A DNA stretch of 64,000 nucleotides from positions 2,053,501 through 2,117,500 of the forward strand of contig NC_091970.1 in assembly GCF_036711975.1 (NCBI RefSeq), written 5' to 3'. Under the pieces are notes generated by a model that searched no databases, was not told where the DNA came from, and worked only from the letters and a program-made list of their open reading frames with translations. Below are positions 15,798-58,997 of this stretch, piece by piece (the first letter of the stretch is position 1; the number at the start of each line of letters is the position of its first letter). The stretch is from Onthophagus taurus (taxonomy: Eukaryota > Arthropoda > Insecta > Coleoptera > Scarabaeidae). The position numbers and the translations under genes are program-made.

Positions 15798-15829
15798 TAT
15801 TGTTTATCACGAACCCCAATATTCAAATT

Positions 15830-26700: not shown

Positions 26701-29700
26701 TTAATGTTTCAACTAAAACGTTAAATTCAAAATGTCATTTCGAACCTCAAACATCAAATTCCAAGATATTTAAAATGTCTAAAACAAGATTTCTAAGCGA
26801 TTAATTCATAATTTCAAATTGACGTAAAGCGGTGTATTCGAAATTTTAGAACGTTTCCTAAAGGGATACATTCAAATTGTTGAATTGTCATTTTTAACTT
26901 TAAATTAATGTTTCAACTGAAACGTTAAATTCAAAATGTCATTTCGAATCTCAAACATCAAATTCCAAGATATTTAAAATGTCAAAAACAAGATTTCTAA
27001 GCGATTAATTCATAATTTCAAATTGACGTAAAGCGGTGTATTCGAAATTTTAGAACGTTTCCTAAAGGGATACATTCAAATTGTTGAATTGTCATTTTTA
27101 ACTTTAAATTAATGTTTCAACTAAAACGTTAAATTCAAAATGTCATTTCGAACCTCAAACATCAACTTCCAAGATATTTAAAATGTCAAAAACAAGATTT
27201 CTAACCGATTAATTCATAATTTCAAATTGACGTAAAGCGGTGTATTCGAAATTTTAGAACGTTTCCTAAAGGGATACATTCAAATTGTTGAATTGTCATT
27301 TTTAACTTTAAATTAATGTTTCAACTAAAACGTTAAATTCAAAATGTCATTTCGAACCTCAAACATCAACTTCCAAGATATTTAAAATGTCAAAAACAAG
27401 ATTTCTAACCGATTAATTCATAATTTCAAATTGACGTAAAGCCGCATATTTCAAATTTTAGAACGTGACCTAAAGGGATACATTCAAAATGTTGAAATGT
27501 CATTTTTAACTTCAAACCCATCGTTTTAAAAAATTAATATTTTATTTAAAACGTTGAAATCAATGTTTTATCTAAAACTTTAAATTTCAAAATATCATTT
27601 AAAACGTCGAACGCAACATTTCGAAATGACGGTTGAAACGTTTAATTCGTAATTTCGAATTGACATAAAGCGGTATATTCGAAATTTTAGAACGTTTCCT
27701 AAAGGGACACATTCAAAATGTTGACTTGTCATTTTTAACATCAAATTAATGTTTCAACTAAAACGTTAAATTCAAAATGTCATTTCGAACCTCAAACATC
27801 AACTTCCAAGATATTTAAAATGTCAAAAACAAGATTTCTAACCGATTAATTCATAATTTCAAATTGACGTAAAGCCGCATATTTCAAATTTTAGAACGTG
27901 ACCTAAAGGGATACATTCAAAATGTTGAAATGTCATTTTTAACTTCAAACCCATCGTTTTAAAAAATTAATATTTTATTTAAAACGTTGAAATCAATGTT
28001 TTATGTAAAACTTTAAATTCCAAAATATCATTTAAAACGTCGAACGCAACATTTCGAAATGACGGTTGAAACGTTTAATTCGTAATTTCGAATTGACATA
28101 AAGCGGTATATTCGAAATTTTAGAACGTTTCCTAAAGCGATACATTCAAATTGTTGAATTGTCATTTTTAACTTTAAATTAATGTTTCAACTAAAACGTT
28201 AAATTCAAAATGTCATTTCGAACCTCAAACATCAAATTCCAGGATATTTAAAATGTCAAAAACAAGATTTCTAAGCGATTAATTCATAATTTAAAGCCGT
28301 ATATTTCAAATTTTAGAATGTGCCCTAAAGGGATACATTCAAAATGTTGAAATGTCATTTTTAACTTCAAACCCATCGTTTTAAAAAATTAATATTTTAT
28401 TTAAAACGTTGAAATCAATGTTTTATCTAAACCTTTAAATTCCAAAATATCATTTAAAACGTCGAACGCAACATTTCGAAATGACGGTTGAAACGTTTAA
28501 TTCGTAATTTCGAATTGACATAAAGCGGTATATTCGAAATTTTAGAACGTTTCCTAAAGGGATACATTCAAATTGTGGAATTGTCATTTTTAACATCAAA
28601 TTAATGTTTCAACTAAAACGTTAAATTCAAAATGTCATTTCGAACCTCAAACATCAACTTCCAAGATATTTAAAATGTCAAAAACAAGATTTCTAAGCGA
28701 TTAATTCATAATTTCAAATTGACGTAAAGCCGCATCTTTCAAATTATAGAATGTGCTCTAAAGGGATACATTCAAAATGTTGAGGACTTCATGTTCCTCA
28801 ACAACAGAAATGTGATAAATTCATCTACTTGCTCTACACAACTTTCTGTATAATCAGCTGTATTTTTATCGTTTTCAATATCATCATCTTCTTTATCAGT
28901 TATTAATATTATCCTTGATATATCCTTGAAATTATGAAAATTTTATGAATTTCGTCGTTTTGAAAGTACTTCATGGTAACACTTGGATATCGGAGCACGT
29001 TACAAAAAAACTTTTAAAACAAAAGTTGTAGCAAATTTTATACTTAGCAATATTGCTTTCTTGTACTTTTGCTCTCAGATGAATAAATATTGAGAAAAGT
29101 ACGAAAATATAAAAATTTTATGAATTTGTTGTTTTTTCAAGTTATTAAAGGTAACGTTTAGGAATCGGAGCATGTTATAAAGAAACTTTTAGAACAAAAG
29201 TTGTAGCAAATTTTATTGTTAACAATATTGCTCTCTTGCACTTTTTCTCTTAGATACGTCAATATCGAGATAGATACGAAAATATGAAAATTTGATGAAT
29301 TTCTTGCTCTTTCAAATGATTAAAGGTAACATTCGGGAATCGAAGCATGTTATAAAAAAACTTTTATAACAAAAGTTGTAGCAAATTGTATTGGTAACAA
29401 TATTGCTCTCTTGCACTTTTTCTCTTAGATACGTCAATATCGAGATAGATACGAAAATATGAAAATTTGATGAATTTGTTACTTTTTCAAATGATTATAG
29501 GTAACATTTGGTAATCGGAGCATGTTACAAAAAAACTTTTAGAACAAAAGTTGTAGCAAATTGTATTGGTAACAATATTGCTCTCTTGCACTTTTTCTCT
29601 TAGATACGTCAATATCGAGATAGATACGAAAATATGAAAATTTGATGAATTTGTTACTTTTTCAAATGATTAAAGGTAACATTTGGGAATCGGAGCATGT

Positions 29701-32700
29701 TACAAAAAAATTTTTATAACAAAAGTTGTAGCAAATTTTATTGTTAACATTATTGCTTTCTTGCACTTTTGCTCTTAGATGCGTCAATATCGAGAAAAGT
29801 ACAAAAATATGAAATTTTGATGAATTTGCTTTTTTATGCTATTAAAGGTAACATTCGAGAATCAAAGCATATTATAAAAAAACTTTTAGTACAAAAGTTG
29901 TAGCAAATTTTATTGTTAACAATATTGCTCTCTTGCACTTTTGCTCTTAGATGCGTCAATATCGAGAAAAGCACAAAAATATGAAATTTTGATGAATTTG
30001 CTTTTTTATGCTATTAAAGGTAACATTTGGGAATCGGAGCATGCTATAAAAAAACTTTTAGAACAAAAGTTGTAGCAAATTGTATTGGTAACAATATTGC
30101 TCTCTTGCACTTTTTCTCTTAGATACGTCAATATCGAGATAGATACGAAAATATGAACATTTGATGAATTTTTTGCTCTTTCAAATGATTAAAGGTAACA
30201 TTTGGGAATCGAAGCATGTTATAAAAAAACTTTTATAACAAAAGTTGTAGCAAATTGTATTGGTAACAATATTGCTCTCTTGCACTTTTTCTCTTAGATA
30301 CGTCAATATCGAGATAGATACGAAAATATGAAAATTTGATGAATTTGTTACTTTTTCAAATGATTAAAGGTAACATTTGGGAATCGGAGCATGTTACAAA
30401 AAAACTTTTAGAACAAAAGTTGTAGCAAATTGTATTGGTAACAATATTGCTCTCTTGCACTTTTTCTCTTAGATACGTCAATATCGAGATAGATACGAAA
30501 ATATGAAAATTTGATGAATTTGTTACTTTTTCAAATGATTAAAGGTAACATTTGGGAATCGAAGCATGTTATAAAGAAACTTTTAGAACAAAAGTTGTAG
30601 TAAATTTTATTGTTAACAATATTGCTCTGTTGCAGTTTTGCTCTTAAATGCGTCAATATCGAGAAAAGTACAAGAATATGAAAATTTGACGAATTTGCTT
30701 TTTTATGCTATTAAAGGTAATACTCGGGAATCGAAGCATGTTATAAAGAAACTTTTAGAACAAAAGTTGTAGCAAATTTTATTGTTAACAATATTGCTCT
30801 CTTGCAGTTTTGCTCTTAAATGCGTCAATATCGAGAAAAGTACAAGAATATGAAAATTTGACGAATTTGCTTTTTTATGCTATTAAAGGTAACATTTGGG
30901 AATCGAAGCATGTTATAAAGAAACTTTTAGAACAAAAGTTGTAGTAAATTTTATTGTTAACAATATTAATATCTTGCACTTTTGCTCTTAGATGCGTCAA
31001 TATCGAGAAAAACACAAAAATATGAAATTTTGATGAATTTGCTTTTTTATGCTATTAAGGGTAATACTCGGGAATCGAAGCATGTTATAAAGAAATTTTT
31101 AGAACAAAAGTTGTAGCAAATTTTATTGTTAACAATATTGCTCTCTTGTAGTTTTGCTCTTAGATGCGTCAATATCGAGAAAAGTACAAAAATATGAAAA
31201 TTTAACATCATTTTTGATATTCATTTTTAGTGATATCCTTCAATATAATCCTTTGATATCTTTCAGCATCATTTTTGATATCTTTTAACATCATCTTTGT
31301 ATTATCGTCTTTTAACACCATCAGTTGATCAAACTGTTTTATTCTCTTTCAATATCTTTCATCATCTTCCCTAATCTTTATGGTATATATATTAACAAAA
31401 ACTTACTCATCATATAAAAAGTGTGTATATAAGTAAAAAAAAACTTACATGACTTATTGCAGTTGGATGTACGACAAACTCAATACATTCAGCTGTATCC
31501 ATAATCGGAATTTTGACCGAATAAACGACTCCATTAATTCCAGCCACGAACAACATTAAATTCGAATTGGAAAGTACCACTTTGGTCAAAGCCGTCTGCG
31601 TTACAGAAACATCCCTTTGAATATTACAGTTCATAATCTCCCTAATTCTGCCGTCTGAGCCAACCGCAAAAACCGATTTTCCATCGCCCGTGGTATTGGC
31701 ATCCGCAAATTGACACGATTTCACGATCGTCTCGCTGATTCTCCGCGTCGTCGAGATTTGCCATTCGTAAACTGCCCCTTCGGCCCCGCACGAACACAAT
31801 TTATAATCGTCGTGAACCCAAGAGAACCCCGTAACCCTTCCGTTATGACCTTTCAAATTAAACATATGCTCGAACGAAACCGACGAGTACACTTGAATTA
31901 TATTTCCGTTGGCAGCCGCAAAAATATGACCCAAATTACTAAAAGATACTAATTTGCAATTCCTTACGGAGAATTCTCGGGTCATTTCGAGATCGTCTAA
32001 AAGGATTGTTAAGAATCGGAGTTTGTCGGAGAATCCGACCACGGCGTATAACCCCGTTGGGTGCAAAGCTAAACCGTGGATTTCTTCTAAATAAGTTTTA
32101 ACTAATTCTAAAGTTTCCGATTCAAAGTTCCAAATGCGTATGGTTCGGTCCCAAGTTCCCGAAGTCATAAAAATCGGCTTCCATTTACACACCGCAATCG
32201 AACCAATTCCACCATGATGCAAATTCATCCCTTGTTCTTGAAACATAATTTCAGGTTGCGCAACTATATCGGGCCCCCATAACCTCACCGTATACATTTG
32301 ATTCTCTTTACACGTCGCTAATAACCTATCTTCAGATAAATTCACCCCCAAATGATTAATGTGGTTTAAAGCACCATCAACGGTTGGGTCATCGTCTTCG
32401 CGAACGACGTTTCGATCGGGTACTTTAAAAACGTTTCGTCTTCTGTAACGATGCGGGGTTTCTTTTTCGTATAAATAAACCATTCCGACCCCGCAAGCGT
32501 AAGCAAACCCTTTCGAGAAGACGAACATCGATTTTACTTGGTTATCTTCGCCTGCTATGGCCATCAAAGAGTTATCTAACAAGTTTGTTAAATCGCCCGC
32601 TTCGGCGTCATCCTCGAATTTGTAGTTGAATAAAGGGGTGTCGTACGCGATGTGTATCGCTTTGAGCTCGCCACTTTCGATGGTCATTATGCGCCCGTCC

Positions 32701-35700
32701 GAAGTTCCCGCGAGAAAACGGTCTTGAGATAACCAAGATCCGGATGTGAAGTTAACACCTTCGGCTTTTGCGAAACCGAATTGGCGCCAAACGTTTTCGA
32801 ACGATGCGAGCATTCTGTACGTTTGGTTTCCGAGTAAGATGAGGAGGTTTGGGTCGTTTGGGTTGCAACAAATCTGGAATAAAATTGTTTTTCAGTTTAA
32901 TAAAAATATAAACTATCAAAGCCCAGTACCCGACATCATCATTACAAGTATGCAACCAATATCACAGTACTGGTATTGCAATACGCGATTAGTAATATTG
33001 GTTGCATACTTGCAATGATGACGTCGTGTATGTTAATTAATTAACACACTGTACTTTTTTTTAATAAAGAAAAGTTTTCTGTAATACAACAACAATATAC
33101 AACAATCTAGCGCTGAATAACAATTAAAACTAGAACTAGCATCATTGATTTATACATCGTATGGACAACTAGGGGAATACCCAGCGCAGCGTTGCCAACC
33201 TATGCCCACCAAATGTCGGTTTTATTAGAAAAATCGCTTCAGAATAATATATCCTTCAATCATATAATGCTCTGATGTGGAAGATATGGGACCCTTACAA
33301 AGGTACCTTGTTGAATGTTTAATTAAAATGATTGTTTTTCGGGGTCAAATCTATTGGCAAGTTGTTGGGAATCGAAGCATGTTATAAAAAAACTTTTAGA
33401 ACAAAAGTTGTAGCAAATTTTATTATTATCAATATTGCTCTCTTGCACTTTTTCTCTTAAATGCGCCAATACCGAGAAAAGTACAAAAATATGAAATTTT
33501 GATGAAATTGCTTTTTTATGTTATTAAAGGTAACATTTGGGAATCGAAGTATGTTACAAAAAAACTTTTATAACAGAAGTTGTAGCAAATTTTATTGTTA
33601 ACAATATTGCTCTCTTGCACTTTTTCTCTTAAATACGTCAATATCGAGATAGATACGAAAATATGAAAATTTGATGAATTTGTTGCTTTTTCAAATGATT
33701 AAAGGTAACATTTGGGAATCGGAGCATGTTACAAAAAAACTTTTAGAACAAAAGTTGTAGCAAATTTTATTGTTAACATTATTGCTTTCTTGCACTTTTG
33801 CTCTTAGATGCGTCAATATCGAGAAAAGCACAAAAATATGAGAATTTGATGAATTTGTTGCTTTTTCAAATGATTAAAGGTAACATTTGGGAATCGGAGC
33901 ACGCTATAAAAAAACTTTTATAACAAAAGTTGTAGCAAATTTTATTGTTAACAATATTGCTCTCTTGCACTTTTTCTCTTAGATACGTCAATATCGAGAA
34001 AAGCACAAAAATATGAGAATTTGATGAATTTGTTGCTTTTTCAAATGATTAAAGGTAGCATTTGGGAATTGGAGCATGCTATAAAAAAACTTTTATAACA
34101 AAAGTTGTAGCAAATTTTATTGTTAACAATATTGCTCTCTTGCACTTTTTCTCTTAGATACGTCAATATCGAGATAGATACGAAAATATGAAAATTTGAT
34201 GAATTTGTTGCTTTTTCAAATGATTAAAGGTAACATTTGGGAATCGGAGCATGCTATAAAAAAACTTTTATAACAAAAGTTGTAGCAAATTTTATTGTTA
34301 ACAATATTGCTCTCTTGCACTTTTGCTCTTAGATACGTCAATATCGAGATAGATACGAAAATATGAAAATTTGATGAATTTGTTGCTCTTTCAAATGATT
34401 AAAGGTAACATTCAAGAATCGAAGCATGCTATAAAAAAACTTTTAAACAAAAGTTGTAGCAAATTTTATTGTTAACATTATTGCTCTCTTGCACTTTTTC
34501 TCTTAGATACGTCAATATCGAGATAGATACGAAAATATGAAAATTTAATGAATTTGTTGCTCTTTCAAATGATTAAAGGTAACATTCGGGAATCGAAGCA
34601 TGTTATAAAGAAACTTTTAGAACAAAAGTTGTAGCAAATTTTATTGTTAACAATATTGCTCTCTTGCACTTTTTCTCTTAGATACGTCAATATCGAGAAA
34701 AGTACAAAAATATGAAAATTTGATGAATTTGTTGCTTTTTCAAATGATTAAAGGTAACATTCGGGAATCGAAGCATGTTATAAAAAAACTTTTATAACAA
34801 AAGTTGTAGCAAATTTTATTGTTAACAATATTGCTCTCTTGCACTTTTGCTCTTAGATACGTCAATATCGAGATAGATACGAAAATATGAAAATTTGACG
34901 AATTTGTTGCTCTTTCAAATGATTAAAGGTAACATTCAAGAATCGAAGCATGCTATAAAAAAACTTTTAAACAAAAGTTGTAGCAAATTTTATTGTTAAC
35001 ATTATTGCTCTCTTGCACTTTTTCTCTTAGATACGTCAATATCGAGATAGATACGAAAATATGAAAATTTGATGAATTTGTTGCTTTTTCAAATGATTAA
35101 AGGTAACATTCGGGAATCGAAGCATGTTATAAAAAAACTTTTATAACAAAAGTTGTAGCAAATTTTATTGTTAAGATTATTGCTCTCTTGCACTTTTTCT
35201 CTTAGATACGTCAGTATCGAGATAGATACGAAAATATGAAAATTTAATGAATTTGTTGCTCTTTCAAATGATTAAAGGTAACATTCGGGAATCGAAGCAT
35301 GTTATAAAGAAACGTTTAGAACAAAAGTTGTAGCAAATTTTATTGTTAACAATATTGCTCTCTTGCACTTTTGCTCATAGATGCGTCAATATCGAGAAAA
35401 GCACAAAAATATGAAATTTTGATGAATTTGCTTTTTTATGCTATTAAAGGTAATATTCGAGAATCGAAGCATGTTATAAAAAAACTTTTAGAACAAAAGT
35501 TGTAGCAAATTTTATTGTTAACAATATTGCTCTCTTGCACTTTTTCTCTTAGATGCGTCAATATCGAGAAAAGTACAAAAATATGAAATTTTGATGAATT
35601 TGCTATTTTATGTTATTAAAGGTAATATTCGGGAATCGAAGCATGTTATAAAAAAACTTTTATAACAAAAGTTGTAGCAAATTTTATTGTTAACATTATT

Positions 35701-36827
35701 GCTCTCTTGCACTTTTGCTCTTAGATGCGTCAATATCGAGAAAAGTACAAAAATATGAAATTTTGATGAATTTGCTTTTTTATGTTATTAAAGGTAACAT
35801 TCGGGAATCGAAGCATGTTATAAAGAAAGTTTTAAAACAAAAGTTGTAGCAAATTTTATTGTTAATAATATTGCTCTCTTGTACTTTTGCTCTTAGATGC
35901 ATTAATTTCGAGATAAATACGAAAATATCAAGATTTGATCAAATTATTAAAGGTAAGACTCGGGAATCGGAGCACATTATAAAAAACTTATGATGCATAC
36001 TGTATATACCAACGATCTGGCAACGTTGCTCGAGCGACATTGCCACATTGTCGGTAATGCAGTAATAATGTAATAAGTAGAGTATTCCCATAATATAATA
36101 ATAATATTTCAATTCTATCCTTTATTAAAATTTTGAAAATCCGTAAATTAATAAATAAATCGATAGGGTATAAATCGGTAGGGTTGGCAACGCTGAATAA
36201 TAGTTCTAGTTTTAATTTTATCAAAATATATAACAATTTATCACCGATTAACATTTAATAAGTATTAATTTACCTGGACGATATCTCCGACGTTATTTAA
36301 ATTATTAGCGCGACAACTGCTTTCAACTCGGCCTTTTTCAGCTTTATAAACGTACATTTGCCAATCGGGTTCGCCGGTCACAACGATTAGATTTCGGTTA
36401 TCTTGGGTAAAAGACATGCAAGCGAATTCTCGCGTCGTACATTCGCGATCCATTGGAATCAAGATTTGTTTCTTTTTCTTGCAGGTGTTCGTCTCAAATA
36501 ACGTAGCATAGGGCCTATCTCCGCTTTCAGCAACCGCCAATAATTTTCTAACGCAAAATTTTTTATTATTAATCGTTTCATCAAGATTGCGAGGATTATT
36601 TATTACCTATTTGGAGTTATCGCAATAGAAGTAACATATTGGCCCCGATCGGTGAGTTTAATAAATTTTTGTCGGTGTTGATTAAAATTGTGCATAACCA
36701 GCATGCTTCCGCATGGATAAGCGATGTCTTCATCGTTAATAAAATGAGCGTTACCTTTTACTGCAGTGTTTATACCTAAAATGAGTCGGGGTTGAAGGGC
36801 TGGAAGCGCAGCGGTTAAAGCTGCCAT
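23775..36827 (-). CDS. CFAP57: Cilia- and flagella-associated protein 57 (WDR65), complete
   Basis: Four coding exons join in phase: 36827-36607, 36547-36274, 32873-31449 and 25595-23775, giving 1246 residues, close to the ~1250 of vertebrate CFAP57. The protein is part of the inner-dynein-arm/regulatory region of motile axonemes. Residues ~1-660 form WD40 repeats (for example TSGTWDRTIRIWNFESETLE, GAEGAVYEWQIS). Residues ~690-1210 are a long coiled coil containing IQDKEKRIFELKRRNQELEK and the segment KSQIEPRERRIREQ, hallmarks of this family. Splice sites are AG|GTAATA, CAG|GTAAAT and CAT|GTAAGT. Introns 2 (3.4 kb) and 3 (5.9 kb) are filled with satellites, whereas intron 1 is 59 bp. It is transcribed divergently from ANKRD40, 630 bp away, with an RFX X-box before the start. 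Identity and exon structure are secure. Confidence 0.96.
25669..25774. other. Hairpin-forming inverted repeat in CFAP57 intron 3
   Basis: The arm AAGATTATGTTGAGGGACCA...TGCAAAAAAT (25669-25700) is repeated in inverted form at 25743-25774 with only one or two mismatches and a loop of ~42 bp. It lies 75 bp from the exon 4 splice acceptor. It could be a small MITE remnant or fold in the intron RNA. Confidence 0.6.
25780..26394. other. Intron sequence, low complexity
   Basis: AT-rich intron 3 sequence with scattered degenerate repeats of CAACATC/TCATC type. Similar text recurs at 28880-28950 and 31205-31380. No gene or clear element is seen. Confidence 0.4.
26395..26491. repeat. Left copy of ~100 bp direct repeat flanking the intronic 204 bp array
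   Basis: TTGAGGACTTCATG then CCTCAACAACAGAAATGTGA and a following segment to ATCGTTTTCAAT are found again at 28780-28879, with a few substitutions and small indels. The two copies bracket the satellite array. Confidence 0.8.
26515..28785. repeat. 204 bp satellite array in CFAP57 intron 3 (~11 monomers)
   Basis: GAACGTTTCCTAAAGGGATA begins near 26645, 26849 and 27053, a 204 bp period. Words AAATTCAAAATGTCATTTCG and AAGCGATTAATTCATAATTT recur throughout. Two monomer subtypes alternate in the second half (the type with CATCGTTTTAAAAAATTAAT and the type with ATTAATGTTTCAACTAAAAC), so a higher-order period is present from about 27430 onward. Related diverged copies lie at 22421-23330, outside the gene. 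Confidence 0.88.
28780..28879. repeat. Right copy of ~100 bp direct repeat flanking the 204 bp array
   Basis: Matches 26395-26491 in the same orientation, starting immediately at the end of the last satellite monomer. Confidence 0.8.
28960..31205. repeat. 175 bp satellite array in CFAP57 intron 3 (~13 monomers)
   Basis: AAAAGTTGTAGCAAATT recurs with a 175 bp period (29021, 29196, 29371). Other fixed words are CAATATTGCTCTCTTGCACT, GTCAATATCGAG and AAAGGTAACATTTGGGAATC. The same satellite, in the same orientation, fills intron 2 on the other side of exon 3. Confidence 0.9.
32928..33029. other. Hairpin-forming inverted repeat in CFAP57 intron 2
   Basis: Arms of 35 bp (32928-32962 and 32995-33029; core ACAAGTATGCAACCAATAT and its complement) differ at about three positions and are separated by a 32 bp loop. 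It is a candidate MITE remnant or RNA hairpin. The word TATGCAACCAA also occurs in the ANKRD40 upstream repeat. Confidence 0.65.
33355..35985. repeat. 175 bp satellite array in CFAP57 intron 2 (~15 monomers)
   Basis: Same monomer and orientation as 28960-31205 (AAAAGTTGTAGCAAATTTTA, TTGCTCTCTTGCACTTTTT, CGAGATAGATACGAAAATAT). Subtypes with GAGATAGATACGAAA and GAGAAAAGTACAAAA alternate in blocks in both arrays, which suggests exchange between them or a common origin. Confidence 0.9.
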
Positions 36828-36894: not shown

Positions 36895-36936
36895 ATAAAT
36901 AAACAAGTTTAATCAATATTTTTAATCGTTTCAAAA

Positions 36937-37457
36937 TTAAGTTATGCAACCAACATGACACGTGGGAAACTTATGCAACCTAATTAACATCTTTTTATTT
37001 TTTATTTATAATATTGATATGGTCACTTTTTAACAAAATTTAATACAAAAATGTCTTACAGCGCCGAAATATTAATTATTTCAATAAAATATTAATTATT
37101 TACTAAAATATTTTAATAAAATAAATTATTTCAAAAAAATTGAATTATGCAACCAACATAACACGCACGAAACTTATGCAACCCAATTAACACGTCGTTA
37201 TTTTTTATTTACAATATTGATGTGGTTACTTTTTAACAAAATTTAATACAAAAATGTCTTACAGCGCCGAAATATTAATTATTTCAATAAAATATTAATT
37301 ATTTAATGAAATATTTTAATAAAATAAATTATTTCAAAAAAAATTGAATTATGCAACCAACATAACACGTACGAAACTTATGCAACCCAATTAACACGTC
37401 TTTATTTTTTATTTACAATATTGATGTGGTTACTTTTTAACAAAATTTAATACAAAA
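36937..37457 (+). repeat. Triplicated ANKRD40 promoter and first codons
   Basis: A ~203 bp unit is present two full times plus a third that runs into the real gene. Each contains TTATGCAACCAACAT, a second TTATGCAACC, ATTGATGTGGTTACTTTTTA (or a close variant) and then ATGTCTTACAGCGCCGA. The ATG copies are at 37051, 37254 and 37458. Only the last continues into ANKRD40; the first two enter a 14-codon frame that ends at TAA. The first unit also contains a CACGTG E-box (36959-36964) that is mutated in the other two. Confidence 0.9.
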
Positions 37458-38269
37458 ATGTCTTACAGCGCCGAGGAAAAACTACGAGAAGCCTCGGCTC
37501 TTGGTGATATCGAAGGTATTCAAAACTTATTGGCTCAAAACGTTGATGTTAACGCAAAGAACTCAATAAACGGTTGGTATGTATTAAAAAGAGATGTTTT
37601 TGTAATAAAACCTTAAATAAAACATTAATTACTTTTAGGACTGCTTTACATTGGGCCACCAAACGCAACCATGAAACTGTAGTAAGAATCTTATTAAGTA
37701 ATGGAGCTGATAGTAAATTAGAAAACCAAAAAGGTGAACGACCATCGAATTTATCCAAAAACCCCTCGATTTTAAACCTTTTAGAACCTCCAACTGCATC
37801 AGACTCGAATGATTCTGGTGAAGATAACTTAAAATTCACCCCTAATTACATTAAAAATGCCCCATTAAATGGTCAAGTTGATTTGGGGACTAAATTAAGG
37901 CAAAGACACCCCGATTTCTCAACAATGCCAACAACAGCTTTACCTGCAGCTCAATCTGATGATGATTTAGTTCTAAAAATACGCGTTTTTGGTTCAAGTG
38001 ACCCTGATTTTATTGAGATTGAAGTGCCACGGTGGAAATTAACCTACAATGGGTTACAAAAGATTTGTTGTGAGGAATTGGAGATTTGTGAAAGTCAAGT
38101 TGAACGAATTCGTAAGTTACCCAATGTGAGGTTGAGAAAGGACGCTGATGTGAAGAGGTTGATGGATTTTCAGTGCTTAGAAATTGTTTTAAAGCCACCC
38201 TTAAATGAGAAGTTGAGTAATAGTTATCAGAGTATCTCCACGCATAAGGATCAAACTATTCTTTATTGA
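37458..38269 (+). CDS. ANKRD40: Ankyrin repeat domain-containing protein 40
   Basis: Two exons, 37458-37576 and 37639-38269, join through GT-AG sites (TTG|GTATGT, TTTTAG|GACTGC) and give 249 residues, shorter than the vertebrate protein (~370), mainly in the middle. The N-terminus has two ankyrin repeats (ALGDIEGIQNLLAQNVDVNA; NGWTALHWATKRNHETVVRI), matching the NGW...LHWA.KRNH signature of ANKRD40. A variable linker follows. The conserved C-terminal domain has DFIEIEVPRWKLTY, CCEELEI and QVERIRKLPNVRLRKDADV. The cellular role is poorly known. The start chosen is the third of three duplicated ATGs, because only it leads into the frame. The duplicated upstream ATGs would act as short uORFs if transcribed. 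The 62 bp intron is typical of insects. Confidence 0.93.
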
Positions 38270-39069: not shown

Positions 39070-40292
39070 TTAATTATTTCTTTTCCTCTTTTTAGCTGAT
39101 AACTGCTCCACCAAAACCCTTCCAGATGGATAAACAGTAACTTTTGAATTATTCTTAGTTGATAATTCATCCGAATACACATTACAAGATTTCGCTCTTT
39201 TTCCTCTTATTTTTGGCACTTGAATTTCATCAGGATTTTCTGCCAAAAAAAATTTATTAATAATAAAACGTTTATTAACTTATTAAACTTACTCAAAGAA
39301 ATATAAAGTGGAACAGCCATACTCAAATCCGTTTTTAAATTAACAACCTTAATATTTTCCCACCCCCCAGGAAATTCCTTCGCCAAGGCTTCACAAGCCG
39401 TTAAAATATTCTCAAAAATCTCCATAACTTTCATATGACAATGTCCAATTTGAACCGAATAAGAATTTCCATGCCCTTGAATATTTATACTCGTCCTTAA
39501 CATCGCATATTTCATTTTTTGGGCCATCCCATGTTCCATTCGAATGGGAATTGGTAACCGACGTTTCTTATAAAAGATTTTCCCCAAATGTTTCGAAACA
39601 TATTTAGATATCTTTCCATCAACAAAAAACACATCGTACGTCGCCAACAATTTTCGTTTCATTTCAAATTCGTTGTATTCCGTTTTGAGTTCGTGTAAAG
39701 GTAAGATTTTATTGATTTTCGTTTCAACACCTTTCTCAATAAACAACTTCTCATAATATTCAGCAACTTTTTCATGCTCTTTCTTAATAATTCCATCAAC
39801 ATCGCTTACAATAAAACACACAGTTGAGTCCTCATCATGCAACATGTGCTTCAAAGGAAGCCGAACCGTTCTTGCTGGACAAATTGGGACTTTAAATGAT
39901 GATAATAATAAGAAAATCGGAGTGTCTAAATCTAATAATTGATTTTCATTCTTTTTTTGTTCCAAAATTTTAAATAAAGCGTGTATTCCGGAGATTATTG
40001 ATGGTTTATCAAAGTTTAATTGGTTTAATACTTTATTTATGTCTAATTCTTGCGAAATTGGTGATAATTCGGTGGTCTTAACCTCACTTTCTTCATTGTC
40101 ACTTGACATAACCTCACTTTTTAATTTTTTTAATTTCTTCTCCAATTTTAATTTTTTTTCGAATTTCTTCACTTTATTACCTTCATCTTGCGATCCACCC
40201 GGTTTATTCAAACGAACATATTTTCCAGGTTCATTTTCTTCCTGAATTTTTCGCTTTATTTTCAAGCGTTTTTTCTCCGTATTTCGTTCCAT
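39070..40292 (-). CDS. RSL1D1: Ribosomal L1 domain-containing protein 1 (nucleolar)
   Basis: Two exons, 40292-39293 and 39239-39070, spliced at TTTGA|GTAAGT and TTTGGCAG|AAAAT, encode 389 residues. The family carries a ribosomal L1-like fold and acts in the nucleolus in ribosome biogenesis. The N-terminal ~80 residues are strongly basic (KKFEKKLKLEKKLKKLKSEV). The L1-like domain spans ~90-340, with FIVSDVDGIIKKEHEKVAEY, KRKLLATYDVFFVDGKI, KIFYKKRRLPIPI and the IQIGH-type motif VQIGHCHMKVMEIFENI. The tail ends in AKKRKRNN. The start is taken at the ATG at 40292; the frame is open for two more codons upstream but lacks another ATG. It is divergent from TSEN54 with 212 bp between start codons. 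Its 5' end and promoter have been copied to 58283-59205. Confidence 0.92.
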
Positions 40293-40504
40293 TTTCACTA
40301 AATTAACGCACTTACCAATACTTTAACGAACAACTAATCTAATCTATTTAATTCTTTTTTCCTTTTTAAACTAAATTAATTGCACGTGTTGTTTTAAAAA
40401 AGCCAAACAACGATAAGAAAAGTGAGGTTATGTGTCAGAAAATGGATACGTTCATTAATGCGTGATTCATAACCTCACTTTATTTTAATTATTTATTTAT
40501 TAAA
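40293..40504. promoter_or_regulatory. Shared divergent promoter of RSL1D1 and TSEN54
   Basis: A 212 bp interval serves both start codons. It contains a CACGTG E-box (40383-40388) and a perfect 14 bp inverted repeat, AAAGTGAGGTTATG (about 40428-40441) and CATAACCTCACTTT (about 40469-40482), that could form a hairpin around TGTCAGAAAATGGATACG. The AAGTGAGGTTA word is common near genes in this window. The ATG within the loop opens only a short frame. Confidence 0.6.
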
Positions 40505-41500
40505 ATGGATCAAAATATAAACGATTAGTAAGAAAACTAAGCAAAAAAGGAATTTTGTAAATGAAAAGTTTATTTTTAGCGCAAAATCGTTAATTGAAGC
40601 ACATCAAAAACCGATTGTGAGATTAAATATTGGAGGGGTAAAAAGGTTTTTACCTCAAAATGATAATAATGAGCCAATAAATAATAATTTGGAGGTTTTA
40701 AAAAGAACGTTAAGCTTCCCTAGAGTCGATAGAAGGTATTTGACACGACCTAATTTCTTCATTTGACATTTTTTTTGTAGAAATCTGAGATCGCAAGGAT
40801 TATATCTGCCACAAGAACGCCTCATTTTAATCAAAAAATTGCACAATATACAAAACGTGGGGTTTCGAAACAAATCTGGGATGTATTTCAACTTGGAAGA
40901 AGCTTTGTACTTTTTAGAAACTGTAAATTAATAACTACTAATTAGTTATATTAATTTTTTTAAATTTATTTTTTAGAATCGATTAGAAGTTTTTTGGAAC
41001 AACACTCCGATTAGTATCCAACAAGCTTATTATTTATTCATAGATGATTTATTAACATTAGATAAATACAAAGTTTACAAAAAATTTATGACTCACAGCT
41101 TTCAAGTGGCACGATTTAAAGAACATGAAGAACCCCCTTTAAAAAAACCTAAATTAATCGATCAAAATGAAGAAAAAAACGAAAAAATGATAGAAATTTT
41201 TAGACAATTAAAAGAAAAAGCTCCAAAACAAGTTGAAAATGTCAATGTTCAACAAATCCCAGTTTATTCTTGTATTAATCCGAGACAAACTGATTTAGAC
41301 AACAAATATAACGTGCATATAGTGTAAGGAGTAAGTTTTATCTCTTCGTGATTAAGATTTCTTATCCTTTTAGTAACCAAGAAATGGACCCCAAAATAGG
41401 TTTTTACGCGGAAAATGTCCCAAATTTATTTGCAATAACAACAAACGACGATATTCCTTTATATAGAATAAGTAAAGTGTCTTTACCATGTTTATTTTAA
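40505..41500 (+). CDS. TSEN54: tRNA-splicing endonuclease subunit Sen54
   Basis: Five short exons (40505-40527, 40580-40735, 40781-40922, 40977-41323, 41374-41500) join in phase to give 264 residues, about half the vertebrate length. The shortening is in the central linker. Sen54 is a structural subunit of the heterotetrameric endonuclease that cuts introns from pre-tRNAs in the nucleus. Family landmarks are LSFPRVDRR, YFNLEEALYFLETNRLEVFW, PISIQQAYYLFI and the C-terminal fold ending FYAENVPNLFAITTNDDIPL. The first exon encodes only seven codons plus two bases and is the least certain part. Exon 4 must end at AGT|GTAAGG; a stronger-looking GTAAGT 9 bp later lies after an in-frame TAA. The terminal exon has a second full copy downstream (41921-42047). 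Confidence 0.85.
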
Positions 41501-41802
41501 TAAAATAAAGATTAATTTTAATTATTTAAAAACAAATCTGAAGTTGGCTCATTAAAACATAACCTCACTAAAAAAAAAACATGATTTTGATTTAAAAAAT
41601 GTTATTTAAATAACATTATTAATAATTAAGCGACGATGTTCCTTTATATAGAGTAAATAAAGTGTTTTTACCATGTTTGTTTTAATAAAACTAAAAATAA
41701 ATTTAATTATTTAAAAACAAACTTGAAGTTGGCTCATTAAAACATAACCTCAAAAATAACTCTAATCTCACTAAAAAGAAAAACACGATTTTGATTTAAA
41801 AA

Positions 41803-41877
41803 ATGTTATTTTTATCGTTTTTGCGATAAATCGTGCTTCATATACTAAAAAGGTTTAAGCGCAAAGATTTGCATTGG
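41803..41877 (+). pseudogene. Broken copy of NSUN4 exon 1
   Basis: Matches 42543-42617, including the ATG and the CATTGG|GTAAAT donor, but codon 9 is TAA. It cannot encode the targeting peptide. Confidence 0.8.
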
Positions 41878-41920
41878 GTAAATATTAACTAATTATTTAT
41901 TTATTTATTAATCCTTTTAG

Positions 41921-42047
41921 TAACCAAGAGATCGACCCCAAAATAAGTTTTTACACGGAAAATGTCCCAAATTTATTTGCAATAACAATAAACGACGATA
42001 TTCCTTTATATAGAATAAGTAAAGTGTTTTTACCATGTTTATTTTAA
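41921..42047 (+). pseudogene. TSEN54: Second, intact copy of the TSEN54 terminal exon
   Basis: 127 bp, the same length as exon 5, with the same CCTTTTAG acceptor, reading phase and stop. Compared with exon 5 it has five amino-acid changes (Met to Ile, Gly to Ser, Ala to Thr, Thr to Ile, Ser to Phe) but I see only one clear silent change, so it is probably not under strong protein constraint. It could serve as an alternative last exon if splicing skips exon 5, but the simplest reading is a duplicated, decaying exon. Transcript data would decide. Confidence 0.7.
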
Positions 42048-42323
42048 TAAAATAAAAATTAATTTCAATTATTTAAAAACAAACTTGAAGTTAGATATTA
42101 AAGCATAACCTCACTAACGAAAAACATGATTTTGATTTAAAAAATGTTATTTAAATAACATTATTAATAATTAAGCGACGATATTCCTTTATATAGAGTA
42201 AATAAAGTGTTTTTACCATGTTTATTTTAATAAAATAAAAATTAATTATTTAAAAACAAACTTGAAGTTGGCTCATTAAAACATAACCTCACTAAAAAGA
42301 AAAACGCGATTTTGATTTAAAAA

Positions 42324-42393
42324 ATGTAATTTTTTTCGTTTTCGCGAAAAATCTCGTTTCATATACTCAAAAGGATTAAACGCAAAGATTCGC
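42324..42393 (+). pseudogene. Second broken copy of NSUN4 exon 1
   Basis: Matches 42543-42617 from its ATG, but the second codon is TAA. The 3' end joins directly to a TSEN54 exon fragment, so the splice donor is lost. Confidence 0.75.
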
Positions 42394-42542
42394 ATCCTTT
42401 ATATAGAATAAGTAAAGTGTCTTTACATGTTTATTTTAATAAATTTAATTATTTAGAAACAAACTTGAAGTTGGCTCCTTAAAAGATAACCTCAAAAATA
42501 AATCTAACCTCACTAAAAAAAACACGATTTTGATTAAAAAAA

Positions 42543-44236
42543 ATGTTATTTTTATCGTTTTCGCGACAAATCCCGCTTCATATCCTTAAAAGGTTTAAAC
42601 ATAAAGATTCGCATTGGGTAAATATTAATTTAAAACATAAAAAAATTAATAAATATAACCTAAAATTTTTTTTCTTTTTAGTCGGTGGCTCGTAAAAAGA
42701 AATCGCACACCCAAAGAGCCCTCGAACATTTCAACGAATTTTACGAACCGATTTATAAAACAGATTGGGGAGGTATTCGGCAAGGATTACTTACCCGGCA
42801 AAAATATGTGGCTTTAATAAACAATTTTTCTGACTCTGAAAGGATTTGTAATGAATTAGAACGAACCGGCGCAATGAATTTGCGGAGATTATTTCATTTA
42901 GAAAAGGAATATTTAAGTATTAATAACAAGAAGTTAAACCAAAGTATTAAAACTTTAAAAAATACTAATAATGAGAGTATTAATGAAGATCAAATTGAAA
43001 AAATCGATTCAAATCGAATTATAGATGGTGTTAATTCAAATTTGAGCTTAACCGAATTTGTTCCTGCCACAAAAATCAAAGGGATGGAAGATTTTATAAC
43101 AGAATCAGAACATTATAATTCTTATAACCCCCAAGATTCTTCTATTGTAGAAATTGAAAAACAATACGATTTTAATTTCCCAAATACCTTAAATGTTTAT
43201 ATATACGACACGATGGATAAACAAACATTTAAATCACCCCGAAAAGGCTCAACAGGCGTTTTAGATTATTATTTATTAGATGGAGGTTCTTTACTCCCAA
43301 TTTTAGCCCTAGATATCCAACCAAACGAAAAAATCCTCGATATGTGCTCCTCCCCCGGTGGAAAAAGCTTAATAATCCTTCAAACTCTTTACCCAAAAAC
43401 CCTAATTTGCAACGACATCTCAAAATCAAGAATTGACCGAATTTTTAAAGTCATGAAAGAGTATTTGTACGATTTAAACGAAAATTGGTTCGAAACCGGG
43501 CGATTAAAAATCCAAAATATGGATGGGAGGGATATTAATGACGAATTTGATAGGGTTTTAGTGGATGTTCCATGTACGACCGATCGGCATTCGGTTAATC
43601 AAGAAGATAATAACATTTTTAAACCCGATCGGATTAAAGAACGATTAAAGTTACCTGAATTGCAGTCCGATTTACTTGTGAATGCGTTAAAAATGGTTCG
43701 AGTTAATGGAACGGTGGTTTATTCGACTTGTACGTTAAGTCCCATTCAAAACGACGGGGTTGTTCATATGGCGTTAAAAAGGATTTGTGAAGAAACCGAT
43801 TTAGGGTTTAAAATAATGTAAGTGAAATTATTTTGAGGTTATGTACGTTTTAATTGACGTTTAAATTTTTTTTGATTTATTTTGATTTGAGAAATAAACT
43901 TATTAGTTTATTATAAATAATTTTGATCGTTTATACGATATTAACATTATTGTTTATAAAAAATGAATTAATTATTTAAAAAAAAATTAAATTAAATTAA
44001 TTTTTTTGACGTTGGTAGTAATGAATTAAAAATTGAAATGTCATTGTCAAAATGAAAAAGTGAGGTTAAAATTATTTGAAATAATTTTTTTTAGTGATAT
44101 GAGACCTGCTTTAATGCAGGTACTTACCTCTTATAAAATGTTTGGATCCTCCTGGAAGTATGGTCACTTGGTTGTTCCAAATCTAAGTCGAAATTTTGGG
44201 CCTACTTATTTTTGTAAATTGGAGAGAACGCGGTAG
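42543..44236 (+). CDS. NSUN4: 5-methylcytosine rRNA methyltransferase NSUN4 (mitochondrial)
   Basis: Three exons, 42543-42617, 42682-43817 and 44095-44236, join in phase to give 450 residues. NSUN4 methylates the mitochondrial small-subunit rRNA and, with MTERF4, helps assemble the mitoribosome. Exon 1 encodes a 25-residue peptide rich in Arg/Lys and hydrophobics (MLFLSFSRQIPLHILKRFKH), as expected for a mitochondrial presequence. The Rossmann methyltransferase core has the SAM-binding ILDMCSSPGGKS, the motif IV VLVDVPCTTDRHSVNQE and motif VI YSTCTLSPIQND. The two cysteines in PCT and STC are the expected catalytic and release residues. The last exon ends VVPNLSRNFGPTYFCKLER, matching the family C-terminus. 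Residues ~100-165 are an insect-type Asn-rich insertion. Exon 2 has no internal start; the upstream exon was chosen because phase and targeting character fit. Confidence 0.92.
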
Positions 44237-48000: not shown

Positions 48001-51000
48001 ACGGCAAACATAATTTTTGTATTTGTTGTTCGAGGGCAATAACGTTCACTTGGGGTTCTTGAGACGCCGCTCCATCATCAGTAATCGTATACAAATCAGT
48101 TTCACCAAGAACCTCATTAATAAGGAGCAAAGCTGCCCCTAATGAGTCAATATGCGACGTTGAAGCTCCTTCGCACGCTTTTAATCGTTCTGGACCGGTT
48201 AAACCACATGATATTTGACATACAGCTTGATAATAAAGTAGATTATATACAACTTTTACTATTGTAGTAAAATAAACTAAAATATAAAAATATTGATTAA
48301 AAAAATTCAATGATAACAATATTAATATTACCTTGATCGACGTGGAGTGGTAACAACAGAACAAACTGTAAAAGTAAAGCGATGGGATCGCGTAATAACA
48401 AAGGAACTTCTCGGTCCACGGCCGCTAAAGCATTCGTGGGTGTCGCAGGGTAACCGGATAATTGTTGCAGATTCATCCATGCTGGCCACAAGGCTAAAAC
48501 TCGTGCGTGTAAAGCTAATACGTGTAGTAACGGTACTGAAATTAAGAAAAAAGTATTAAAAATGTTTAAGTCAAAATAAAAAGTGAGGTTAAATTTGAAA
48601 TAAATTCATTTTATTTTTTTGACGTTGGTAGAAAATTTAATTCTAAGTGTCAAAGTCAAAAAAAAAAGTGAGGTTAAGTTTAATTATTTGAAATAAATTA
48701 ATTTTATTCTTTTTTCGTACTTATAATTGGAGTTAAAGTTGATTTTTAACTATAAATCGCGTTTGCGACCAATTTAATTCAAAAAATAATCGGGAACGAG
48801 CACAATTTTGTTGTAAATTAGCGCATTTCAAAAAAGAACTAGTTAAGGTTATGTTAGATGTTTAAATTAGACGTATTGATACAAGATTATCAAAATTAAT
48901 GAAATGAGTGAAAATAATAATGAATCAATGTCTATCTATTAATTAATTCAAATTTTAATAATTTTACTTAAAATCGCATTTAATTTATTTTTTTGACGTT
49001 GGTAGTTTGGAATCGAAAATTTAATTTTAAAGTGTCATTGTCAAAATAAAAAAGTGAGGTTAAATTCGATTATTGGAAATAAATTAATTTTATTCTTTTT
49101 TCGTACTTATAATTGGAGTAAAGACTGATTTTACATTATTTTATTACACTACATGTGCGAAAACAAAAATAAGTGACACGCCAGTTTCATTTTTAAAGTG
49201 TACTACAACTATATACACAAATTAGGACCTCAACCGAAACGAAAATAGATATATTCTAGGTTAAATGTGGATAATTAAACGTTATCTTTGAATCTGTTAA
49301 CGTAATTGGGATTTAATTATGAATGCAATGTAACATAACCTAAATTTGACATTAAAAAATGTTGTGTTTTGTGAACACTCCTCTATGTTGTCGTGGTTAT
49401 ATGTTTTTAGACTCATCATTGGCGCCAGTAATTTCATAAGTGTGCAGACTTTTCTGATCCATGCATGTATGATTTCAACTTGCATGCCAGTTGATGTTTA
49501 CACATGCCATTTAATTTTACTGGCGCGCCAGTTTGTATTGACGCCACTAAATCCATGCATGTCTAATCTCACTATAACTTCAGTTATAAAATTTCTATTA
49601 CATGATAACTAACATTCGGTTTAAAATATCAACCTCAATTTTGACATAATTGTAATCTTCATTAAAAATCCTTTAAAATGAGTACAAACACGACATATTT
49701 ATCTTCAATATTAATGAAATTATGGTCAACTTCCGGTTAAGAATGTCAATTTTGTCATATTTGTAATCGTCGTGAAAAATCCTTTAAAATGAGTACAAAC
49801 ATGATACGTTTAATTCCAATATTACTCGAGATATAAGCAACTTCCGGTTTGAAATGTCAATGTCATTTTGACATATTCTTAATTTTTATAAAATGTCTTA
49901 ATATTTATCACAAAAACAAAAATATAATAAAAAAAAAATAAAAAATTAAGGTTGGTATTATAAACTGCTATCTTCATTGTTGCTAACTTCGGGTTTAATG
50001 TTTTTTTATTCTAACTTTTTTATTTTTTGAGATAAGTGCGTCATCTTTGGACTCATTTTAAAGGGTTTTTAATGAAGATGACAAATAGGTCAAAATTGAC
50101 GTTGACGTTTCAAACCGGAAGTGATTGTATTTCCATTAATATCAAAGATAAATATGTGAAGTTTGGAGTCATTTTAAAGGATTTTTTATGAAGTTGACAA
50201 ATATGTCAAAATTAAAAGTTAAAAGTTCGAACTTTTTAGTTTTTTGAGATAAATGCGTCAAGTTTGAACACATTTTAAAGGTTTTTTTAATAAAGAATAT
50301 ATCATGAAGTTGTCCATTTGTTTATTATATGATAACTAACTTTAGGTTTAAAATGTCAACCTCAATTTTGACATATTTTTAATCTTCATTAAAAATTCTT
50401 TAAAATGAGTACAAACACGACATATTTATCTTCAATATTAATAAAATTATGGTCAACTTCCGGTTAAGAATGTCAATTTTGACATATTTGTAATCGTCGT
50501 GAAAAATCCTTTAAAATGAGTACAAACATGATACGTTTAATTCCAATATTACTCGAGATATAAGCAACTTCCGGTTTGAAATGTCAATGTCATTTTGACA
50601 TATTCTTAATTTTTATAAAATGTCTTAATATTTATCACAAAACCAAAAATATAATAAAAAAAAATAAAAAATTAAGGTTGGTATTATAAACTGCTATCTT
50701 CATTGTTGCTAACTTCGGGTTTAATGTTTTTTTATTCTAACTTTTTTATTTTTTGAGATAAGTGCGTCATCTTTGGACTCATTTTAAAGGGTTTTTAATG
50801 AAGATGACAAATAGGTCAAAATTGACGTTGACGTTTCAAACCGGAAGTGATTGTATTTCCATTAATATCAAAGATAAATATGTGAAGTTTGGAGTCATTT
50901 TAAAGGATTTTTTATGAAGTTGACAAATATGTCAAAATTAAAAGTTAAAAGTTCGAACTTTTTAGTTTTTTGAGATAAATGCGTCAAGTTTGAACACATT

Positions 51001-54000
51001 TTAAAGGTTTTTTTAATAAAGAATATATCATGAAGTTGTCCATTTGTTTATTATATGATAACTAACTTTAGGTTTAAAATGTCAACCTCAATTTTGACAT
51101 ATTTTTAATCTTCATTAAAAATTCTTTAAAATGAGTACAAACACGACATATTTATCTTCAATATTAATAAAATTATGGTCAACTTCCGGTTAAGAATGTC
51201 AATTTTGACATATTTGTAATCGTCGTGAAATATCCTTTAAAATGAGTACAAACATGATACGTTTAATTCCAATATTACTCGAGATATAAGCAACTTCCGG
51301 TTTGAAATGTCAATGTCATTTTGACATATTCTTAAGTTTTATAAAATGTCTTAATATTTATCACAAAAACAAAAATATAATAAAAAAAAAATAAAAAATT
51401 AAGGTTGGTATTATAAACTGCTATCTTCATTGTTGCTAACTTCGGGTTTAATGTTTTTTTATTCTAACTTTTTTATTTTTTGAGATAAGTGCGTCATCTT
51501 TGGACTCATTTTAAAGGGTTTTTAATGAAGATGACAAATAGGTCAAAATTGACGTTGACGTTTCAAACCGGAAGTGATTGTATTTCCATTAATATCAAAG
51601 ATAAATATGTGAAGTTTGGAGTCATTTTAAAGGATTTTTTATGAAGTTGACAAATATGTCAAAATTAAAAGTTAAAAGTTCGACCTTTTTAGTTTTTTGA
51701 GATAAATGCGTCAAGTTTGGACACATTTTAAAGGTTTTTTTAATAAAGAATATATCATGAAGTTGTCCATTTGTCTATTATATGATAACTAACTTTAGGT
51801 TTAAAATGTCAACCTCAATTTTGACATATTTTTAATCTTCATTAAAAATTCTTTAAAATGAGTACAAACACGACATATTTATCTTCAATATTAATGAAAT
51901 TATGGTCAACTTCCGGTTAAGAATGTCAATTTTGTCATATTTGTAATCGTCGTGAAAAATCCTTTAAAATGAGTACAAACATGATACGTTTAATTCCAAT
52001 ATTACTCGAGATATAAGCAACTTCCGGTTTGAAATGTCAATGTCATTTTGACATATTCTTAATTTTTATAAAATGTCTTAATATTTATCACAAAAACAAA
52101 AATATAATAAAAAAAAAATACAAAATTAAGGTTGGTATTATAAACTGCTATCTTCATTGTTGCTAACTTCGGGTTTAATGTTTTTTTATTCTAACTTTTT
52201 TATTTTTTGAGATAAGTGCGTCATCTTTGGACTCATTTTAAAGGGTTTTTAATGAAGATGACAAATAGGTCAAAATTGACGTTGACGTTTCAAACCGGAA
52301 GTGATTGTATTTCCATTAATATCAAAGATAAATATGTGAAGTTTGGAGTCATTTTAAAGGATTTTTTATGAAGTTGACAAATATGTCAAAATTAAAAGTT
52401 AAAAGTTCGACCTTTTTAGTTTTTTGAGATAAATGCGTCAAGTTTGGACACATTTTAAAGGTTTTTTTAATAAAGAATATATCATGAAGTTGTCCATTTG
52501 TCTATTATATGATAACTAACTTTAGGTTTAAAATGTCAACCTCAATTTTGACATATTTTTAATCTTCATTAAAAATTCTTTAAAATGAGTACAAACACGA
52601 CATATTTATCTTCAATATTAATGAAATTATGGTCAACTTCCGGTTAAGAATGTCAATTTTGTCATATTTGTAATCGTCGTGAAAAATCCTTTAAAATGAG
52701 TACAAACATGATACGTTTAATTCCAATATTACTCGAGATATAAGCAACTTCCGGTTTGAAATGTCAATGTCATTTTGACATATTCTTAATTTTTATAAAA
52801 TGTCTTAATATTTATCACAAAAACAAAAATATAATAAAAAAAAAATAAAAAATTAAGGTTGGTATTATAAACTGCTATCTTCATTGTTGCTAACTTCGGG
52901 TTTAATGTTTTTTTATTCTAACTTTTTTATTTTTTGAGATAAGTGCGTCATCTTTGGACTCATTTTAAAGGGTTTTTAATGAAGATGACAAATAGGTCAA
53001 AATTGACGTTGACGTTTCAAACCGGAAGTGACTGTATCTCCATTAATATCAAAGTTAAATATGCCGAGTTTGGACTCATTTTAAAGGTTATTTTGTGAAG
53101 ATTACGAATATAATAAAATTAAAGTTGACTCTAGATTCTACTTCTAAAGGTCTATTCTTAGAGAGTTGCGTCTCGCTATGGAAACTATGTTTTGCGAAAC
53201 GTTTTGCGTCGCGTTTCCACTAAAAACGATAAAATGTCGCTTAGTCAAGTGATGTATAATTAATTCAAATTTTAATAATTTCACACAAAATCGTATTTAA
53301 TTTTTTTTTTTGAAGTTGGTAGTTTTTTTAATTTAATTTTAAAGTGTCATTGTCAAAATAAAAAGTGAGGTTAAGTTTAATTATTTAAAATAAATTAATT
53401 TTACTCTTTTTTTGTACTTATAATGACTAAAATATACTTACTTATGCAATCTCGTTTAGGTAACAAAGGATTCAAAGGTTCACCAGTAGTAACCAAAGTT
53501 CCCGATCGTTGAGTCAACGCAATTTCGAGGTTAGTGCGCGCTATCGACGTCACAAATAAAAACAAACTTTGATTGCTACACTGCGGATTTTGTATTTTAA
53601 ACATCGGCTTGGTTTGCGCATTATTCGTCATGTCCTCCATCGCTCGACTCATCGCCTCGCTCAAATTCGATTTGTTCGGCTTTTGGTGCGTTTCCCCTAA
53701 AACGCTGCTCAACTCGTTAATGACTTGTTCCATGCTCGTGGGGCGCGATCGCACCATTTGGGTGCAATCCCCCAATTGTGGGGATAAGGGAAGTACCGAA
53801 TTCGCTAATTGGCGGCATAACGGGCAGTGATATTCACCTCTAAAATAAAATTTTAGTTATTATAAATTGTTTTTTAAGTTAATAAATTAATTTACTTTTC
53901 GGGGGATAAATTTTGTTGTCTTTGTTGCGATCGGAGCGAGTGTAAATAAGATTTTAAACAGTCTAAATGTAAGTGATGTCCGCAAGTTTGGACGTGAACT

Positions 54001-58282: not shown

Positions 58283-58650
58283 CATAACCTCACTTTCTAA
58301 TTTTTTTATCGGTTTTAATTTTTTTTCGAATTATTTTACTTTCATCTTGTAATCCACTTGATTTATTTAAACAAACACATTGTCAGGCTAATTTTCTTCC
58401 TACATTTTTCTTTTAAAATCCAAACCCTTTCTTTCTGTATTTAAGTCCCGTTTCGTTGAATTTTTCACAAATATTACTACACTCACCACTATTTTAATTG
58501 TAATCTAATCCATTTATTCTTTTTTTCCGTTTTAAAATAAATTAATTGCACGTATTGTTTTAAAAAAGACAAACAACAATAAGAAAAGTGATTTGATGTG
58601 TCAGAAAACGGGTACGTTCATTAATGCAATGATACATAACCTCAAATTAA
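58283..58650 (-). pseudogene. Copy of the RSL1D1 5' end and its promoter
   Basis: Aligns along its length with 40107-40484, i.e. RSL1D1 codons ~1-65, the 5' flank and the shared promoter. Matching words include TTGTTTTAAAAAAG, ATGTGTCAGAAAA and ACGTTCATTAATGC. The start codon is lost (ATGGAA became ATTCAA) and a stop follows, so it is dead. The promoter E-box CACGTG has become CACGTA. It lies upstream of the last visible UBR3 exon, probably within a UBR3 intron. Confidence 0.8.
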
Positions 58651-58739
58651 TTTTATTAAATAAAATAATATTTTGTTAATTCTTATATTGTTTTTTGCTC
58701 TCTACAACAAGTGTAGAGTTGGAAAAAAACATTTTCAGT

Positions 58740-58930: not shown

Positions 58931-58997
58931 TCATTTCGCGGTCTAATTATAAAATAAGTGTGAAGTTAGCAAATTTCAAAATTTGTTCTGTCAACTT

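Follow-up and report, generated by a model that had tools for sequence, protein, structure and literature searches.

Tandem duplication across the boundary of two genes is an established and rather unremarkable type of mutation. In the portions of the Drosophila reports drawn on here (PMC5460883, PMC4503668), boundary-spanning duplications have their breakpoints in two genes, leave the parent genes in place, and place a 5' segment of one gene next to a 3' segment of its neighbour. Not all of these junctions stay silent, since expression was raised in 24 of 76 tandem-duplication chimeras of Drosophila yakuba in the excerpt of PMC5460883 used here. The account of partial and chimeric duplicates by Katju (2012; PMC3449122) includes, in the extract considered, single duplications that partly cover two adjacent genes, and in the part of PMC6380325 concerned with small segmental duplications of Drosophila most duplications are below 500 bp and many segmental ones below 1 kb.

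The boundary between TSEN54 and NSUN4 in Onthophagus taurus shares these traits, including the size. It departs from the Drosophila chimeras, as those portions present them (PMC5460883, PMC4503668), in its short 547-bp unit, in its five nested modules and in a chimera that codes for eight residues at most, and from the cases in the Katju extract (PMC3449122) in that the duplication takes in no more than a terminal exon from TSEN54 and a first exon from NSUN4. Whereas the duplications in the quoted part of PMC6380325 segregate in populations and most tandem ones are without divergence, the boundary repeat described here is diverged by about 5%. The portion of a satellite-DNA paper that we used (PMC5844308) held nothing specific to the boundary repeat. 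A literature search for TSEN54 together with NSUN4 gave nothing related, judged by title and the start of the abstract, and among the matches listed for wider searches were general studies of duplication and of fusion transcripts.

Gene content of the locus

The assembly comprises 33 contigs and 291 Mb. The locus lies within the window, by which we mean the whole stretch of 64,000 nucleotides that was analysed (G+C 29%). TSEN54 (40505-41500) and NSUN4 (from 42543) are arranged head-to-tail on the plus strand, with the following exons.

40505-40527, 40580-40735, 40781-40922 and 40977-41323, plus strand: exons 1-4 of TSEN54, the gene body (joined frame, Pfam, PDB)
41374-41500, plus strand: TSEN54 terminal exon in module M1, adjoining the gene body after the intron 41324-41373 (50 nt), stop TAA at 41498-41500
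42543-42617, plus strand: true NSUN4 exon 1 in module M5 (MLFLSFSRQIPLHILKRFKHKDSHW), donor at 42618, in frame with exon 2 at 42682
42682-43817, plus strand: NSUN4 exon 2 (frame, Pfam, NSUN4 chains)
from 44095, plus strand: NSUN4 exon 3

The five exons of TSEN54, separated by introns of 52, 45, 54, and 50 nt, join into a reading frame for a 264-aa protein that carries the Sen54 N-terminal family domain tRNA_int_end_N2 (PF12928, E 1.1e-9). All four sequences that it matched in the PDB are named tRNA-splicing endonuclease subunit Sen54 (best E 2.1e-9), and these chains we take to be human. The C-terminal exon (igfyaenvpnlfaittnddiplyriskvslp) aligns weakly with the C-terminus of the Sen54 chain, a match that is non-significant alone. 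When the assembly was searched with the TSEN54 protein, nine candidates were scored and four matches found, all at this locus. The NSUN4 protein matches Methyltr_RsmB-F in Pfam (E 9.9e-26) and NSUN4 chains in the PDB (best E 4.1e-71). The names that the first-pass annotation had given to both genes hold because of these Pfam and PDB matches.

The first in-frame methionine of NSUN4 exon 2 is residue 65 of that exon, and exon 1 therefore matters to the protein. One NSUN4 chain is matched in two stretches, the weaker of which begins at residue 16. NSUN4 is a mitochondrial protein, and its true N-terminus here is basic and hydrophobic, which may reflect the presequence expected of such a protein.

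Five partial modules at the gene boundary

Between 41364 and 42640 the boundary occurs five times in partial modules, whose parts, as delimited by alignment, are as follows.

41364-41628, plus strand: M1, whole TSEN54 terminal exon and truncated NSUN4 start
41599-41613, plus strand: truncated NSUN4 start copy of M1, ATG TTA TTT AAA TAA, without donor
41629-41910, plus strand: M2, TSEN54 exon end and NSUN4 exon 1 copy
41629-41685, plus strand: last part only of the TSEN54 exon in M2, without acceptor
41803-41877, plus strand: NSUN4 exon 1 copy of M2, stop after 8 codons, splice donor kept
41878-41920, plus strand: hybrid potential intron of 43 nt, GTAAAT...CTTTTAG (sequence and alignments)
41911-42175, plus strand: M3, whole TSEN54 terminal exon and truncated NSUN4 start
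41921-42047, plus strand: spare TSEN54 terminal exon of M3, frame and stop intact, AATAAA at 42046 overlapping the stop
42144-42158, plus strand: truncated NSUN4 start copy of M3, ATG TTA TTT AAA TAA
42176-42394, plus strand: M4, TSEN54 exon end and NSUN4 exon 1 copy
42176-42230, plus strand: last part only of the TSEN54 exon in M4, without acceptor
42324-42394, plus strand: NSUN4 exon 1 copy of M4, ATG directly followed by TAA, donor lost
42395-42640, plus strand: M5, TSEN54 remnant and true NSUN4 exon 1
42395-42439, plus strand: TSEN54 exon-end remnant of M5, with a 1-nt deletion

The stretch 41357-41874 aligns with 41903-42395 at 89% identity across 519 columns, gaps counted (reported E of 0.0), and 41364-41545 with 41911-42092 at 95%. 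The two halves of the repeat lie 547 and 545 bp apart, so M3-M4 is a copy of M1-M2. In the shared core M1 and M3 differ at 10 of 172 positions and M2 and M4 at 8 of 169; divergence in the remaining eight module pairs is 9.6-17.6%. These are head-to-tail copies, in direct orientation and at one locus, of a segment that carries the 3' end of TSEN54 and the 5' end of NSUN4, as gene models and family searches indicate. The direct repeat is far beyond chance, and the tandem duplication proposed from a first inspection stands, with five modules in place of the three proposed.

Two haplotypes or misjoined reads set in tandem by the assembler would also give neighbouring copies. Such an artefact is extremely improbable, as the five modules with their separate truncations are unlike two alleles, and so are the divergence of 4.8-5.7% with indels between the units and that of 9.6-17.6% between the other core module pairs; a single contig of 14.9 Mb, moreover, contains all the copies.

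An origin of the unit from a mobile element or a dispersed repeat was also considered and, as far as could be seen, rejected. Searching the 291-Mb assembly at the DNA level, with very common words skipped, returned the locus itself and one other match of about 80 bases at 77% identity. Only short matches of 19-60 bases were found in 20 fetched loci of 10 kb, and the rest of the window held three short ones, at 43947-43986 and 37312-37348, the latter inside a tandem array at 36933-37474.

The window is rich in other tandem arrays, with shortest units of 111-727 bp. The larger ones are these, and smaller ones also occur.

4573-7450: tandem array, unit 183 bp
9545-15798: tandem array, unit 183 bp
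18400-22248: tandem array, unit 282 bp
26517-28783: tandem array, unit 204/433 bp
28928-31203: tandem array, unit 175 bp
33367-35939: tandem array, unit 175 bp
49594-53123: tandem array, unit 727 bp

None of the window's arrays matched the boundary repeat save for the short stretch at 37312-37348. Kinship with the 183-bp arrays, suggested by similar spacings of 183 and 185 bp, was rejected with no match at E 1e-3. Tandem arrays with units of at least 50 bp make up 10% of the bases in the 20 other 10-kb loci, a figure that is biased because these loci were chosen for a 12-mer, CATAACCTCACT, and are no random sample. The boundary was probably caught by tandem duplication, a process common in this region. 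At 58283-59222 there are three partial copies, 75-83% identical, of pieces of 40107-40501, a stretch made up of the start of a minus-strand ORF (39207-40322) and sequence common with the TSEN54 start. Two of the three are mutually alike and 684 bp apart; this is a second case of copied gene-start DNA.

Inner starts of NSUN4 and a potential hybrid intron

Each of the four inner NSUN4 starts reaches a stop within 8 codons, which leaves the outermost as the sole open one. Counting the ATG, the open codons number 4 at 41599, 8 at 41803, 4 at 42144, and 1 at 42324, as against 25 up to the donor for the start at 42543. Among the inner copies the splice donor is kept only at 41803. The first-pass annotation had placed the true first exon of NSUN4 inside the repeat, which is confirmed by the frame that joins exon 2, and had described two preceding copies with early stops; the copies are indeed dead, and there are four of them (41599, 41803, 42144, 42324).

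At the junction of M2 and M3, the first bases of NSUN4 intron 1, with the donor, meet the end of the last TSEN54 intron, with the acceptor, to form GTAAATATTAACTAATTATTTATTTATTTATTAATCCTTTTAG. The NSUN4 5' part is here joined to the TSEN54 3' part with splice signals present, and the resulting potential intron of 43 nt is slightly shorter than any intron of TSEN54 (45-54 nt). Judging from these signals, a transcript started before M2 could splice from 41878 to 41921 into the spare TSEN54 exon. The longest ATG-started frame in such a chimera (the NSUN4-like exon 1 at 41803 and the spare exon) is eight residues long. One may imagine the boundary as a small switch, with two C-terminal forms of TSEN54 from its two intact terminal exons and a short chimeric RNA, made by the inner hybrid unit, that affects a parent gene, and we hold this to be highly unlikely.

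The spare terminal exon of TSEN54

The acceptors at 41374 and 41921 had been correctly identified, and the extra terminal exon is intact as claimed, with acceptor, frame, and stop kept and AATAAA as well. The last 10 nt of its acceptor are identical to those of the first exon (ATCCTTTTAG). One reading is that this exon serves as an alternative terminal exon, reached by skipping of the first exon or by poly(A) read-through, and gives a slightly different C-terminus. Its intact signals and the lack of indels in 126 nt speak for this, but we consider such use very unlikely in view of what follows. The first exon has its own AATAAA at 41499, which overlaps its stop and lies upstream of the spare exon, and its intron of 50 nt is like the neighbouring ones (45-54 nt), whereas splicing from 41324 to the spare exon would span 597 nt.

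The two exons differ in six codons, one synonymously (E=E) and five nonsynonymously (M to I, G to S, A to T, T to I, and S to F), which are few sites. The divergence of 6/126 is that of the noncoding part of the unit (16/283; Fisher P 0.82). Indels number 0 in the 126 nt of the spare exon and 4 in the 283-nt flank, which leans weakly towards constraint (Poisson P 0.17). By comparison with the solved Sen54 chain, the change of G to S moves towards the residue of that chain, which would favour a used exon, but the change of S to F falls at the T of its TLP; both lie in a low-scoring stretch that is non-significant alone. Neither the codon changes nor the comparison with the noncoding flank of this single exon pair gave any sign of purifying selection.

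In 20,000 simulated exons given six random changes, all placed on one copy and with 60% transitions assumed, 74% stayed open with the AG kept, and the open ones had on average 4.2 nonsynonymous changes. The intact spare exon thus needs no selection to account for it, and intactness is the usual outcome of neutral drift at this age. The further proposals of two TSEN54 C-termini, of transcripts with several starts or ends, and of chimeric RNAs describe things that may be possible, and the analysis of the repeat lends them no support.

Upstream sequence of NSUN4 and a frequent 12-mer

Extra copies of the boundary bring with them extra copies of the sequence upstream of NSUN4, and a multiplied promoter could alter NSUN4 output. 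Every one of the five modules has AACCTCA upstream of its start copy, and all but M2 also have AACCTCAC there. The window holds 19 sites of AACCTCAC (e.g., 40422, 40471, 41561, and 42506) against 0.57 expected by shuffling, 4 of them within the boundary repeat. The 12-mer CATAACCTCACT, which may be functional, has 547 matches in the assembly, some of them copies in tandem arrays, against 22 for the reversed control. The exact 12-mer, however, occurs in M1, M3, and M4 and is absent from M5, which carries the true start. Transcription beginning in M4, where the donor is lost, would read through into M5 and only lengthen the 5' leader.

A role of CATAACCTCACT as a mark of gene starts found no support, for in a crude test on 26 sites (leaving out those with at least three 12-mers on one strand within 1.5 kb) long ATG-started ORFs following it were not clearly above random positions. 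ORFs of at least 40 aa followed 4 of the 26 sites against 24% of controls, those of at least 60 aa 3 of 26 against 12%, and those of at least 100 aa 2 of 26 against 5%; in the opposite direction, ORFs of at least 40 aa were found at 10 of 26 sites. In the excerpt of PMC5460883 drawn on above, whole-gene duplications of Drosophila yakuba, which are not promoter-only copies, had raised expression in 5 of 66 cases. Altogether, we regard an effect of multiplied promoters on NSUN4 as unlikely.

Sequences flanking the 26 sites are for the most part dissimilar, save for a frequent TT after the 12-mer and for pairs within locus L011, within L015, and between L021 and L025, so CATAACCTCACT does not represent a single repeat family. 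It has the look of a short motif that is functional or under constraint. Its use in animal promoters was not evident among the literature matches listed, which says little. In three of the other loci (L012, 4450-6330; L016, 4696-5735; L011, 3862-6456) tandem or clustered repeats include several copies with CATAACCTCACT, at spacings near 170 and 330-385 bp.

A probable history of duplication and drift

We conclude that a compact gene boundary has very probably been duplicated locally in tandem, the outermost copies serving the two genes and the inner copies drifting. The stretch from the TSEN54 terminal exon to the NSUN4 first exon would first have been partly duplicated into M1-M2-M5. That a unit of about 547 bp was duplicated, probably afterwards, to add M3-M4 is shown by the offsets of 545-547 bp and the divergence of about 5% over most of the unit. 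The breakpoints of the unit lie just upstream of the last TSEN54 acceptor and just inside NSUN4 intron 1.

A single clean 547-bp event is too simple, since NSUN4 exon 1 shows 10 differences in 64 positions between M2 and M4, and the rest of the unit 22 in 409 (Fisher P 0.006). In that exon they differ from M5 at 10/64 and 9/64, respectively. Either the left part was later homogenised by gene conversion or the right part is of other source, which would make the unit a mosaic. Site patterns such as M1 and M5 against M2, M3, and M4 (2 sites) also conflict with a simple tree.

The arrangement would be tolerated because the outermost copies are still joined to both gene bodies, the first TSEN54 exon to that of TSEN54 and the last NSUN4 exon to that of NSUN4. 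The inner copies would have been free to decay, the NSUN4 starts gaining stops and one donor being lost, and the spare TSEN54 exon would have drifted while still unbroken. If the spare exon were now and then reached by skipping, or transcription began in an inner copy, this would amount to transcriptional noise. Functional consequences are possible, and nothing tested favours them over drift.

Biological meaning

The locus is a compact example of how a boundary-spanning tandem duplication can be tolerated, with each gene retaining its outermost copy. The inner copies are either raw material, in the form of a spare exon and a ready-made hybrid intron, or in decay. Use of the spare exon, if it occurred, would give a core subunit of tRNA splicing a young alternative terminal exon. 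As found, the boundary looks like the ordinary outcome of a region rich in tandem duplication.
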